Source: Paenibacillus protaetiae
Lineage (GTDB): Bacteria; Bacillota; Bacilli; Paenibacillales; Paenibacillaceae
DNA: 64,000 bases
Reading direction: 5' to 3'
Assembly: GCF_004135365.1 (NCBI RefSeq)
Contig: NZ_CP035492.1
Span: 992,001 to 1,056,000, forward strand
The notes under the pieces were generated by a model. That model searched no databases. It saw only the letters and a list, made by a program, of their open reading frames with translations, and was not told the origin of the DNA. Position numbers and translations under genes: made by a program. Shown piece after piece: positions 36,160 to 63,017 of this stretch (position 1 is its first letter; each line of letters begins with the position of its first letter).

Positions 36160-36462
36160 TAACAAATGCGATGACGAGACGAGTAAATAAATGCATTCTT
36201 TTACAGAGAGCTCCGCCAGCTGAAAAGGGGCAAAGAAACGTTTATTGAAAAAAAGACTCCGAGCAGCCCGTTGGATCCGTGCTTCAGGCAGAGGGGATGG
36301 CGGGACAGGAGCTCCTGTTACAGAGCTAGAGTATATGTACCGCATAGCGGTATCGTACTCGAAGAGGCTGGCATGGCGACTTGCCGGTGAATCTGGGGTG
36401 GTACCACGAGTATTCCAATCTCGTCCCTAAGACTACGGTCTTGGGGGTGGGATTTTTTATTT
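36160..36462 (+). ncRNA. T-box leader riboswitch upstream of asd
   Basis: Stem I shows AGTA (36182-36185), paired arms AATAAA/TTTATT and TTCTTT/AAAGAA, and AGAGAG (36205-36210) near the distal loop. The T-box sequence, TGGGGTGGTACCACG, is at 36394-36408. An intrinsic terminator follows (TAAGAC-TACG-GTCTT core, T6 at 36453-36458). The specifier side of the loop, GAAAAAAAGAC (36247-36257), contains AAA and AAG, both Lys codons, so uncharged tRNA-Lys is the likely ligand. GAC (Asp) is possible but would fall into the lower helix. Uncharged tRNA would favour the antiterminator and allow asd expression. Confidence 0.93.
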
Positions 36463-41283: not shown

Positions 41284-42771
41284 ATGTCATTAATTAATGT
41301 GGCGAATTTGACCTTTGCTTATGACGGCAGTTACGATACGATCTTTGACAATGTCAGTTTTCAAGTCGATACGGATTGGAAACTTGGATTTACAGGCCGA
41401 AACGGCAGAGGAAAGACGACTTTTCTAAACTTGCTGACGGGCAAATACGAGTACCGTGGAACGATCTCCTCGCAGGTGGAGTTTGAATATTTCCCTTTCC
41501 AGGTGGACAATGACGAGCTGAACACGATTGAAGTGGTCGAAAGCATCTATCCCGATTATGTGCATTGGGAGCTGCTGCGCGAGTTATCCTTGCTGCAGGT
41601 GGAAGATGATGTCCTGTACCGGCCGTTCCGCTCCTTGTCGAATGGGGAGCAGACCAAGATCATGCTGGCGGCATTGTTTTTGAAAGAAAACAGCTTCCTG
41701 CTTATTGACGAGCCGACAAACCATCTGGATATGGAAGCAAGAAAGATAGTTAGCCGTTATCTGAACAGTAAAAAAGGGTTTATTCTCGTCTCGCATGACC
41801 GCGCCTTCCTGGACCGCTGCGTGGATCACATTCTGTCGATCAACAAAACGAATATTGAAATCCAGCGGGGCAATTTCTCGGACTGGTGGGAAAACAAGCA
41901 GCGGCAGGACCATTATGAGCTTGCGGAAAATGAGAAGCTTAAGAAAGATATTAAACGGCTGAACGAATCCGCCAAGCAAAAAAGCGACTGGTCGCATGAA
42001 GTGGAGAAAACTAAAAACGGCACCAGAAATTCCGGTTCCAAAGTAGACAAAGGGTACATTGGCCATAAAGCAGCCAAAATGATGAAGCGTTCCAAAGCGA
42101 TCGAAGGCCGGCAGCAAGCTGCTGCCGAAGACAAATCGAAGCTGCTGAAAAACGTGGAAAGCGCTGAAACCTTAAAGCTGACGCAGCTGCCATATCCTAA
42201 AAATCAGCTTGCGGAACTGGATCATGTGACTTTATATTACGGCGGCAAAGCTGTTTGCCGTGATGTCAGCTTTACGATCGAGAAGGGCGACCGGATTGCG
42301 GTAACGGGACGGAACGGCTCCGGCAAATCCAGCATTCTGAAGCTGATTTGCGGGGACAACATCGACCATGACGGGAACTTCCGGAAGGGCAGCCAGCTGC
42401 AAATATCGTATGTGTCACAGGATACGTCGTTTCTGCATGGCAATCTGACCCACTTCGCGAGAAATCACAATATTGATGAAAGCTTGTTTAAAGCGATATT
42501 GCGCAAACTGGATTTCTCCAGGCAGCAATTTGAGAAAGATATCGCTTCATTTAGCGGCGGCCAGAAAAAAAAGGTGCTTATCGCCAAAAGCCTGAGCGAG
42601 CAAGCCCATCTCCATATTTGGGATGAGCCGCTTAACTTTATTGACGTCATCTCACGGATGCAGATCGAAGATTTGCTGCTTGAATACGAGCCGACGATTG
42701 TATTCGTTGAGCATGACAGCGAGTTTTGCAGCCATATCGCAACGAAGGTTGTTGAACTGCAGAAGGATTAA
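41284..42771 (+). CDS. ribosome-protection ABC-F protein, Lsa family
   Basis: 495 residues, two ATPase domains and no membrane segment. The start (LINVANLTFAYDGSYDTIFDNV) and WKLGFTGRNGRGKTTFLNLLTGKYEYRG are very close to Lsa-type antibiotic-resistance ABC-F proteins. Walker A is at residues 38-46 and again near 345; LSNGEQTK and FSGGQKKK signatures and two Walker B/Glu motifs (LIDEPTNHLDM, IWDEPLNFIDV) are present. The linker between the domains is about 80 residues. Such proteins bind the ribosome E site and displace lincosamides, pleuromutilins and streptogramin A. ATG 41284 follows CAGGAGG; an in-frame ATG at 41116 sits inside the leader and is unlikely. Confidence 0.92.
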   Translation: MSLINVANLTFAYDGSYDTIFDNVSFQVDTDWKLGFTGRNGRGKTTFLNLLTGKYEYRGTISSQVEFEYFPFQVDNDELNTIEVVESIYPDYVHWELLRELSLLQVEDDVLYRPFRSLSNGEQTKIMLAALFLKENSFLLIDEPTNHLDMEARKIVSRYLNSKKGFILVSHDRAFLDRCVDHILSINKTNIEIQRGNFSDWWENKQRQDHYELAENEKLKKDIKRLNESAKQKSDWSHEVEKTKNGTRNSGSKVDKGYIGHKAAKMMKRSKAIEGRQQAAAEDKSKLLKNVESAETLKLTQLPYPKNQLAELDHVTLYYGGKAVCRDVSFTIEKGDRIAVTGRNGSGKSSILKLICGDNIDHDGNFRKGSQLQISYVSQDTSFLHGNLTHFARNHNIDESLFKAILRKLDFSRQQFEKDIASFSGGQKKKVLIAKSLSEQAHLHIWDEPLNFIDVISRMQIEDLLLEYEPTIVFVEHDSEFCSHIATKVVELQKD

Positions 42772-60806: not shown

Positions 60807-60835
60807 TTGAGCGGGAGCTTCTGCTGTGATATAGT
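60807..60835 (+). promoter_or_regulatory. sigma-A promoter of the second ABC-F leader
   Basis: TTGAGC (60807-60812), 17 bp and TATAGT (60830-60835). The transcript would begin near 60842, giving a leader of about 270 nt. Confidence 0.85.
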
Positions 60836-60866
60836 AATCCTAATTATGTAAAGGGAGGTGAGGTAG

Positions 60867-61010
60867 GTGAATCACGAATGGGTTAACAACCGTCTTAGCC
60901 AGCTGCCATTGTCGATGGCTGGCATTTTTTCCGCTTTAATCGCGAACGGGATCAGTCTGTCTATTTTTGACTATACGATTAAACCATTCGCGAGAAGACG
61001 CCTACCTTGA
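60867..61010 (+). CDS. 47-residue leader peptide upstream of the second ABC-F gene
   Basis: GTG start behind a strong AAGGGAGGTGAGGTAG. The product (VNHEWVNNRLSQLPLSMAGIF...KPFARRRLP) has a hydrophobic middle and a basic end. Its coding region overlaps a terminator hairpin: GCCAG-CTG-CCAT / ATGG-CTGGC then A-T6 (60898-60930). A second internal stem is TCGCGAA/TTCGCGA (60940-60993). This overlap suggests a regulatory peptide whose translation, or antibiotic-induced stalling, controls read-through. A small functional membrane protein is the alternative. Confidence 0.65.
   Translation: MNHEWVNNRLSQLPLSMAGIFSALIANGISLSIFDYTIKPFARRRLP
60898..60930 (+). terminator. attenuator terminator 1 of the second ABC-F leader
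   Basis: GCCAG (60898-60902) and CCAT pair with ATGG and CTGGC (60915-60923), then A and T6. It lies inside the leader-peptide frame. Confidence 0.75.
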
Positions 61011-61034
61011 CCACTACGGATGATGTTATGATCC

Positions 61035-61068
61035 AGAGGGCCGCGGGCTTGTTGCCGCGGCTCTTTTT
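61035..61068 (+). terminator. attenuator terminator 2 of the second ABC-F leader
   Basis: AGAGGGCCGCGG and CCGCGGCTCT pair with one bulged G, then T7. It sits between the leader peptide and the ABC-F start, where a complete stop would silence the gene. Confidence 0.85.
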
Positions 61069-61112
61069 TTGTGTGTTTAAGAAGGGTTTTCCTGGAGCAG
61101 GAGGCTCTTACT

Positions 61113-63017
61113 ATGATAATTGTTAACTTACAGCAAGTTCAAAAATATAACGCCGCCAATCTCGTATTGGATGGCGTAACCTTCCAGCTGCAAGCCGGCG
61201 AGAAGGTAGCCCTTATCGGCCGCAACGGAAGCGGAAAGTCAACGCTGCTACAGCTGTTATCTGGGGCTGAGACCGCTGACAGCGGTTCAGTCTCCATCAA
61301 GAAAGATTTGCATATCGGATATTTGCCGCAAATTCCATCGCAATATGAGCATATGACCGTGTATGAAGTGCTTGCATCCGGCTTTCTGGAGCTGACGGGC
61401 TTGAAACAGCAAATGGCGGAGCTGGAATATGACATGGCAAGCAGCGATACATCCGGTCATGCCCGTGATCTGGATCGTTTGCTTACAAGCTACACCTCCG
61501 TGCAGGAGAACTTCGAACGGCTTGGCGGTTATGAAATGGATGCGTCCATTGATCAGGTGGCAAACGGGCTGCAAATTGACCGCAGCCGTGACAGCGGCCT
61601 ATTCTCCAGCTTGTCAGGCGGAGAAAAGACACGTGTTGTCCTTGCATCACAGCTTGTAGCTCGACCCGAATTGCTGCTTCTGGACGAACCAACCAATCAT
61701 TTGGATTTAAAAGGGATCGAGTGGCTGGAGCAGTATTTGCGGCGTTATGACGGGGCATGTGTCATCGTATCGCATGACCGGCAATTTCTGGACGCAGTGG
61801 TCACGAAGTTGATTGAGCTTGAGGAGGGAGAATCCTGTACGTACCCGACGAACTACAGCGGTTATATGCTGGAGAAGGAACAGCGGCTGCTGCAGCAGTT
61901 TGATTTATACCAGGAACAGCAAAAAAAGATAAAAAAGATGAAAGAAACGATTCGCCAGCTTGAAGAATGGGGCAAAATCGGCGGTAACGATAAGTTTTTC
62001 AAACGAGCTGCCTCTATTCGAAAAGCGCTGTCGAAAATAGACATGGTGAAACGTCCGGTGCTGGAACAAAAAAACGCTGATTTTTCCGTTTCGATGCTGG
62101 ATCGCTCGGGCAAAAGAGTGATTTCGTTTGAGCAGCTGACCAAACGGTTTGGAAACCGGCTAATTGTAGAGCAAGCGGAGGGCAGCCTTCTGTTTGGAGA
62201 TAAAATTGCATTGGTTGGAGGTAACGGTACAGGTAAAACGACTTTCCTTCATCTGTTAAGAGGCGCATTAGCTCCGGATGAAGGGCTAATTACGCAAGGC
62301 TCCCGGCTAGTTATCGGTTATTTGGCCCAGCAAGAGCCTGTTCCTAATGAAAAACAGTCGGTTCTGGATTATTTCCGTACAGAAGAAGCATTGGAGGAAG
62401 GGGAAGCCCGCCGCGAGCTGGCCCGTTACTTGTTTTACGGGACTCATGTATTTAAACCGCTGCAGTCGCTCTCCGGCGGCGAATGGACCCGGCTGCGTCT
62501 AGCGATGCTCATGCGAAAAAAACCTAATCTGCTGCTGTTGGACGAACCAACGAACCATCTCGATATCGCTTCACGCGAAGCGTTGGAAGAAGCGCTCGAA
62601 GATTTTCCGGGAACGGTGTTCGCCATCTCGCATGACCGGTATTTTATTAACCGGCTGGCGAAGCAGATCTGGGAAATCGAAAATGCGCGTTTACTTTGTT
62701 TTTCCGGTCATTACGAGGATTACAAGGCAAAGCGGGATCAGTTAAGAAGCCATAAGCCCGGTGAACTGCATAAGCAGCCGGGCAAGAAATTTGAACAGCC
62801 GAGTAAAGGGAAAGAGAAGGATAGGACCCAAAGCAGTGAACAGCTGCTGAAGCATATCACTGCCATCGAAGCAGACTTGGCTAGATTAGATTCGGAAATA
62901 GCCCGGCTGTCCGATTCGGCGGAACTAAAGGAGCTGGCAGCGAAATGGGAAGAAAGAGAAGCGCTTCAAATCAAGCTGGATGAACGGACCGAGCAATGGT
63001 TGAAGCTTAGCGAATAA
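61113..63017 (+). CDS. ABC-F family ATPase (probable ribosome-protection type)
   Basis: 634 residues, two ATPase domains and no membrane segment. Walker A motifs GRNGSGKST (about residue 36) and GGNGTGKTT (about 370), signatures LSGGEKTR and LSGGEWTR, and LLLDEPTNHLD twice. The linker after the first domain (about 240-320) is basic and helical, as in ABC-F proteins; the C-terminus is a charged coiled coil (about 555-634). It is not close to Lsa; the subfamily is not certain. Resistance (Vga/Msr/VmlR-like) or a housekeeping translation factor are options, and the attenuator leader favours resistance. ATG 61113 follows GCAGGAGG. Confidence 0.85.
   Translation: MIIVNLQQVQKYNAANLVLDGVTFQLQAGEKVALIGRNGSGKSTLLQLLSGAETADSGSVSIKKDLHIGYLPQIPSQYEHMTVYEVLASGFLELTGLKQQMAELEYDMASSDTSGHARDLDRLLTSYTSVQENFERLGGYEMDASIDQVANGLQIDRSRDSGLFSSLSGGEKTRVVLASQLVARPELLLLDEPTNHLDLKGIEWLEQYLRRYDGACVIVSHDRQFLDAVVTKLIELEEGESCTYPTNYSGYMLEKEQRLLQQFDLYQEQQKKIKKMKETIRQLEEWGKIGGNDKFFKRAASIRKALSKIDMVKRPVLEQKNADFSVSMLDRSGKRVISFEQLTKRFGNRLIVEQAEGSLLFGDKIALVGGNGTGKTTFLHLLRGALAPDEGLITQGSRLVIGYLAQQEPVPNEKQSVLDYFRTEEALEEGEARRELARYLFYGTHVFKPLQSLSGGEWTRLRLAMLMRKKPNLLLLDEPTNHLDIASREALEEALEDFPGTVFAISHDRYFINRLAKQIWEIENARLLCFSGHYEDYKAKRDQLRSHKPGELHKQPGKKFEQPSKGKEKDRTQSSEQLLKHITAIEADLARLDSEIARLSDSAELKELAAKWEEREALQIKLDERTEQWLKLSE

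Follow-up and report, generated by a model that had tools for sequence, protein, structure and literature searches.

Ahead of an ABC-F gene of Paenibacillus protaetiae stand a promoter, a frame of 47 codons and a terminator. The locus lies in a 64,000-nucleotide stretch of contig NZ_CP035492.1 (positions 992,001 to 1,056,000, forward strand), called the window here. Its layout raises the question of whether the short frame is a protein in its own right, part of a structured RNA, or a device by which translation controls the gene behind it. The best reading was found to be a ribosome-controlled attenuator of the ABC-F gene, to which we give a probability of roughly 0.7. Related leaders, placed ahead of ABC-F genes of this kind in many Gram-positive bacteria, suggest peptide translation as the step that determines production of the ABC-F.

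The features of the locus are collected in Table 1. The promoter (TTGAGC-17-TATAGT), the strong ribosome site and the 47-codon frame, all proposed in an earlier sequence-only reading, were present at the positions given there. Consensus scans of the region gave nine promoter-like sites, with 6.7 expected by chance, and nine terminator-like sites, with 6.8 expected. Neither number is above chance, and the case for the leader therefore rests on conservation. An extended -10 (TGNTANNNT) was observed upstream in 66 of 85 leaders of the window's family, compared with 6.6 expected from shuffled letters. A terminator 3' of the frame was found in 79 of 85 own-family leaders and, with near-copies counted, in 28 of 29 other-family leaders. 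The sequence-only reading had placed two terminators in the leader. The second, after the frame (stem at 61035-61066), held up; the two-terminator model was rejected as a conserved design, as a terminator within the frame was present in only 3 of 114 leaders (the window's own, L001, together with L078 and L104). Elsewhere in the window, at 36162-36431, a T-box leader scored above the Rfam gathering score (97 bits).

Table 1. Features of the leader and the ABC-F gene, in window coordinates
Feature	Position	Strand	Basis
Promoter TTGAGC-17-TATAGT, TG ahead of the -10	60807-60835	+	Consensus scan and conservation
Shine-Dalgarno GGGAGG of the leader frame	60853-60858	+	Sequence; similar site in relatives
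P1a 5' strand, ribosome site and start codon; partner 60999-61012	60857-60869	+	Fold, swap test, pair counts
Leader peptide frame, 47 codons, GTG start, TGA stop, RAxF-45	60867-61010	+	Profile match
P1b 5' strand; partner 60984-60993	60872-60881	+	Swap test, fold
P2 hairpin, the earlier 'terminator 1'; followed by T-run 60925-60930	60898-60923	+	Helix scan, pair counts, fold
P3 5' strand TCGCGAACGG; can pair with 60984-60993	60940-60949	+	Fold with ribosome site covered, swap test
Conserved RNA block, here ACGGGATCAGTCTGTCT, apical part of P3	60946-60962	+	Silent-site invariance, phase independence
Shared 3' strand of P1b or P3, CCATTCGCGA	60984-60993	+	Fold
P1a 3' strand (strand A), last codons and stop; partner 60857-60869	60999-61012	+	Swap test, fold
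Small hairpin GGATGAT/ATGATCC ahead of the terminator	61018-61034	+	Fold only
Intrinsic terminator, 12-pair stem 61035-61066 and T-run	61035-61071	+	Scan, fold, conservation
Shine-Dalgarno AGGAGG of the ABC-F gene	61099-61104	+	Sequence
ABC-F gene, 634 codons, ribosomal protection-like ABC-F	61113-63017	+	NF000355 match

The leader peptide matched the NCBIfam family RAxF-45 (NF041642) with 29.6 bits on the protein and 28.4 bits on the genome, above the cut-off of 27, and no Pfam match over any cut-off was observed for it. Matches to the peptide (E up to 0.01) were found in 172 of 295 genomes of the window's family, and the RAxF-45 model matched 82 of 299 genomes of the class, 45 of them above the cut-off. 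No match to it was obtained in 14 control genomes, Bacillus subtilis among them. Ninety of the 172 family matches were examined (the 30 best and 60 chosen down the list), together with the 30 best of the class matches from other families. A same-strand ABC-F match was found downstream in 89 of the 90 family loci (in L088 as a short piece), the contig ending first in the remaining one. It was also found in all 30 of these best other-family loci, with 41-45% identity to the ABC-F of the window. In all 119 examined loci with downstream sequence the peptide stands before this ABC-F. The frame thus travels with the gene, which supports the earlier interpretation, a leader peptide with attenuation of the gene behind it.

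Genomes lacking the peptide were represented by the first 20 listed of 123 in the window's family without a match. The ABC-F ortholog was missing in 15 of these, 11 having paralogs only (350-381 bits) and four nothing at E 1e-100. The other five kept the ortholog (569-645 bits). A frame missing where the ABC-F gene is kept had been named in the sequence-only reading as an observation against a leader. A diverged leader was recognized by eye in four of the five keepers, and in the fifth, genome G007 (L167), no leader was visible by eye, a possible case of natural leader loss.

The ABC-F protein itself matched NCBIfam NF000355 (ribosomal protection-like ABC-F) with 450.7 bits, above the cut-off of 380. 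All scores listed for the named resistance subfamilies (Vga, Msr, Lsa, Sal, OptrA and CplR) were far below their cut-offs. A tree of 33 proteins, built without seven intended rows (L050, L092, L096, L109, L121, L142 and L167), separated the window protein and 19 leader-bearing ABC-Fs from 13 paralogs by a branch with support of 99/98. The best NF000355 match of the genome, with 491 bits, is the first ABC-F of the window, at 41299-42759. Only one RAxF-45 match is present in the genome, and the leader of that first gene is therefore of another kind.

The predicted fold of the leader RNA has an energy of -80 kcal/mol (z -2.68), and 3 of 200 shuffles were as good. According to the folding model and the comparison of relatives, the leader forms a three-way junction of stems P1, P2 and P3 that spans the frame. 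In P1 the ribosome site and first codons of the frame (strand R) are paired with the end of the frame (strand A), P2 lies over the central codons, and P3 is built around a conserved block. In the fold of the window P1b and P3 compete for 60984-60993. The stems were examined by a swap test, in which each strand was paired with its own partner and with partners from other species. In the 21 other-family leaders the own partner won in 17 for P1a, 19 for P1b, 18 for P2 and 21 for P3, with 0 of 2000 permutations as good in each case. The corresponding numbers in 85 family leaders were 65, 61, 43 and 55, with 0, 0, 1 and 0 of 2000 permutations as good. For the start region as a whole, the own partner was the better one in 19 of 21 other-family and 78 of 85 family leaders. 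The energy tests cover the loci with a matched block pattern, that is, all except 5 of the 90 family loci and one of the 30 class loci (L114). Dereplication removed nine near-copies from the other-family set: L095, L106 and seven of L112-L120, L114 among them.

A blind helix scan of the plain alignments ranked P1a first and P2 second in the family. In the other families P1a again ranked first and P2 third, behind one weaker helix outside the model. This further possible helix, from the start of P3 to the 3' side of P1, joins columns 86-93 with 155-162 of alignment A2, which were 68% paired. On the same alignments that had picked both helices, 82.1% of the P1a and P2 cells were paired in the other families, against 39-61% when the strands were slid, and 90.8% in the family, against 26-51%. 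The covariation score of P1a and P2 in the other families was reached by 1 of 500 shuffles, the number of double-sided changes by 26 of 500 and the number of further pair types by 327 of 500. Covariation of the two helices within the family alone was no better than in shuffles (81 of 500).

Substitution patterns among the leaders show selection on two layers, codons 4-22 being selected as peptide and the downstream block as RNA. Silent change with the residue kept was observed in N-terminal and central codons of the 85 family leaders, at Ile20 (pS 0.76, pN 0.01), Pro14 (pS 0.72, pN 0.10) and Asn7 (pS 1.28, pN 0.23). Codons 27, 28, 30 and 31 of the same leaders were without synonymous change (pS 0.00). 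Over the whole frame pN/pS was 0.66 in the window's family and 0.86 in the 21 other-family leaders, values this high because much of the remaining frame is free as protein or bound as RNA. Synonymous substitution throughout the frame, which the sequence-only reading had expected of a functional protein, was thus found in the N-terminal and central part and not in the rest. In the last part of the frame the DNA is alike among relatives and the reading frame is shifted (for example FARRRLP, HSREDACLHHNG and CEKMPALT).

The GTNTG of the block begins 36-38 bases past the core (RA) codons in 46 parsed other-family loci. These represent 42 different places, since L148, L149, L150 and L152 repeat L091, L105, L101 and L111. 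Parsing covered 47 loci, of which L092 was left uncounted as the pattern fell in the wrong place; L110 and L114 are without the block and L151 is without the core. The block lies inside the frame in 25 of the 46, in the usual phase in 23 and in two other phases in L133 and L142, and after the stop codon in 21. It is thus met in all three reading phases. Its possible origin as a copy of another RNA was rejected, the pattern ACGGGANNNGTNTGYCC having 0 matches in the genome; the window's own block ends in TCT and falls outside this pattern. A NusG-type TTNTTT pause, an idea taken from vmlR, was dropped on inspection by eye, as the T-run past the block is missing in some relatives.

We consider it unlikely that the leader works mainly as a structured RNA, either a riboswitch or a P3-block element bound by the ABC-F or another protein, with the frame secondary. 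Invariance of the block at silent positions and the compact three-way junction would fit such an RNA, as would the 23 of 46 parsed loci in which the block is not read in the usual phase of the frame. The silent change of codons 4-22 with their residues kept, and the conservation of a ribosome site and start codon, the very site hidden by P1, speak against it. Far less probable still is an independent functional small protein, with the terminator as only a partial attenuator between two genes. Conservation at the peptide level, a named protein family and a hydrophobic centre agree with a small protein, but the C-terminal part shifts frame between relatives, 21 of 46 parsed loci have a frame that stops short of the block, the peptide precedes this ABC-F in each of the 119 loci with downstream sequence, and the frame pairs with its own stop region. 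A functional protein over the full length is not supported.

The attenuator could work as follows. When the leader is translated normally, R would re-form its pairing with A, strand A would be tied up and the terminator would end the transcript. Ribosomes stalled by a drug, or by another translation block relieved by this ABC-F, would cover R, directly or by queueing, and leave strand A free. Free strand A could then hold the 5' arm of the terminator before the 3' arm is made, allowing expression of the ABC-F gene. In staphylococcal plasmid relatives it may instead hold a strand that hides the ABC-F ribosome site.

Antitermination at equilibrium was rejected, as the finished terminator remained above 0.5, whichever ribosome state was imposed, in all 79 family and 20 other-family leaders. 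When the 3' arm was left out, covering of the frame start raised the predicted pairing of the 5' arm with the strand-A region from 0.12 to 0.66 in the 20 other-family leaders (up in 19, down in 0). In the 79 family leaders it rose from 0.18 to 0.52 (up in 63, down in 6). The shift in the window's own leader was small, from 0.16 to 0.23, and the switch predicted for the window itself is weak. Native 5' arms performed better than swapped ones in 17 of 20 other-family leaders (p 1e-4); the result for the family, 23 of 40 (every second of the 79 leaders), was not clear (p 0.07). They also performed better than shuffled arms in 19 of 20 other-family and 31 of 40 family leaders. A simpler duplex test was weaker (13 of 17 other-family and 26 of 79 family leaders), and in a further simple duplex test on 19 other-family leaders, L102 and L110 giving no hairpin, 236 of 5000 permutations were as good. 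Two other sets of pairings were rejected because own pairs were no better, or hardly better, than swapped ones: R or the frame interior with the terminator arms, and A, R or the terminator 3' arm with the ABC-F ribosome site.

Members of the same ABC-F clade were found on plasmids in three of 12 Staphylococcus records, the three that were examined: L188 (S. epidermidis pEpi56), L189 (S. aureus) and L190 (S. simulans). The three proteins are 41-42% identical to the ABC-F of the window. In each leader the frame is related, all three stems are present and the block is represented by its end (AAGTCTGTC); a terminator was not visible by eye in any of the three. The predicted fold has four strands, in which strand 2 can leave the frame start for strand 3, which otherwise hides the Shine-Dalgarno of the ABC-F gene. 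Predicted accessibility of this site increased from 0.10-0.11 to 0.41, 0.29 and 0.44 when the leader start was covered; in L189 the hiding helix was still the best fold in this state. Covering of mid-frame codons alone left the accessibility unchanged in the staphylococcal leaders, and a deep stall would therefore need a ribosome queue reaching back to the start. By their predicted folds, the staphylococcal leaders resemble erm-type switches in which the ribosome site of the ABC-F gene is masked. The staphylococcal ABC-F genes have a recombinase or Fst-type toxin gene as neighbour, and the ABC-F match of L190 is in two pieces, without an annotated gene.

A further relative of the leader was recognized in RliI of Listeria. 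Two other-family leaders gave full-length matches to Rfam rliI (RF01487) with 25.9 and 23.3 bits, the gathering score being 45. A search of the 299 class genomes with rliI gave 20 matches, none over the gathering score. Eighteen of these share their place with RAxF-45 matches, many of them below the RAxF-45 cut-off, and 19 stand before the ABC-F, which in L141 is matched by a short piece. The match without an ABC-F, L151, was taken as chance and was not recovered at E 0.01. L133 (G455), the rliI-like leader with one of the unusual block phases, is without a RAxF-45 match. The window leader gave no rliI match at E up to 10, with a gathering score of 45 bits, and is therefore not filed as an rliI member but as a relative through intermediates. 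Its other Rfam matches were below threshold, the best being BjrC1505 (20.7 against 50 bits).

The rliI loci of L. cossartiae, L. farberi, L. marthii and L. monocytogenes have a Shine-Dalgarno, a frame with the core FLYIVRAIFS, a terminator recognized by eye and an ABC-F gene. The L. monocytogenes leader scored 282.6 bits against rliI. Identity to the ABC-F of the window was 45.0% over 322 residues for L. farberi, 43.1% over 371 for L. marthii and 44.7% for L. monocytogenes; the L. cossartiae locus gave only a 42-residue piece. RliI thus resembles the window leader in standing before an orthologous ABC-F (from the tree and identities of 43-45%), in its related core frame and in its terminator. 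The Rfam consensus structure of RliI, compared by eye, likewise has an enclosing stem with two inner stems. Unlike the window leader, RliI is catalogued as an sRNA gene, and the passages on it make no mention of a peptide. According to a review passage (PMC8079631), Term-seq identified RliI as a putative conditional terminator acting on lmo2760, a gene for an ABC transporter ATP-binding protein. lmo2760 is named in a passage of another paper among the proteins whose new synthesis was detected only upon infection (PMC8407217). A role of the terminated leader transcript chiefly in trans, as a small RNA, was the original proposal for RliI and is highly improbable in our estimate: passages of PMC8079631 and PMC11394854 report that RliI binds lmo1035-lmo1036 RNA and that Rli21/RliI binds Rli51, but conservation tracks the downstream ABC-F across families and the staphylococcal relatives are without a terminator by eye.

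A broader proposal, which we regard as doubtful though worth stating, can be built on the attenuator reading. RAxF-45 would be a widely conserved arrest peptide, whose stall on impaired translation is released by its own ABC-F and read by a three-way junction that can be connected either to a terminator or, in the plasmid versions of staphylococci, to masking of the Shine-Dalgarno. The invariant P3 block would add a second sensor at the RNA level or would be bound by the ribosome or the ABC-F, and RliI would be reclassified as a member. The attenuator reading itself joins three loose ends: the uncharacterised family RAxF-45, Listeria RliI and a clade of ABC-F proteins to which no function has been assigned. 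If it is right, RAxF-45 would be re-annotated from a protein to a regulatory leader and RliI from mainly a trans sRNA to a cis attenuator, and the peptide would offer a direct way to learn what is sensed or relieved by this ABC-F. The presence of related leaders before plasmid ABC-F genes of S. epidermidis, S. aureus and S. simulans makes the inducer and the role of this clade worth establishing.

Several known leaders invite comparison. Translational attenuators of the ermC type operate by a four-strand logic, which the staphylococcal relatives share as folded; unlike these attenuators, the present leaders control an ABC-F and enclose the whole frame in P1. The bmrB leader of bmrCD in Bacillus subtilis encodes a long leader peptide of about 54 codons and acts by ribosome-mediated attenuation. 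It resembles the present leaders in the length of its peptide and differs in controlling an exporter, not an ABC-F. According to the passages on vmlR of B. subtilis, a uORF within an anti-antiterminator stem and a terminator precede the ABC-F gene (PMC9226507), and those on cplR of Clostridioides difficile describe a uORF, a terminator and a hidden ABC-F ribosome site (PMC10201436). Both are like the window in having a translatable uORF and a terminator ahead of an ABC-F gene. The vmlR uORF is a tripeptide (Met-Ile-Asn) in these passages, whereas the present class has frames of 40-55 codons, a conserved core and, in addition, an RNA block; the uORF of cplR has three codons, and the passages on it describe no three-way junction. 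From these sources, ABC-F leaders with uORFs of three or four codons and terminators are thus already known for vmlR and cplR. In the literature searched, to which subscription papers mostly did not belong, no paper naming RAxF-45 was found, nor one tying RliI to a leader peptide or to an ABC-F family. Within that literature, the joining of RAxF-45, RliI and one ABC-F clade as one leader class is new, as are the frame-independent RNA block and the staphylococcal version that hides the Shine-Dalgarno.
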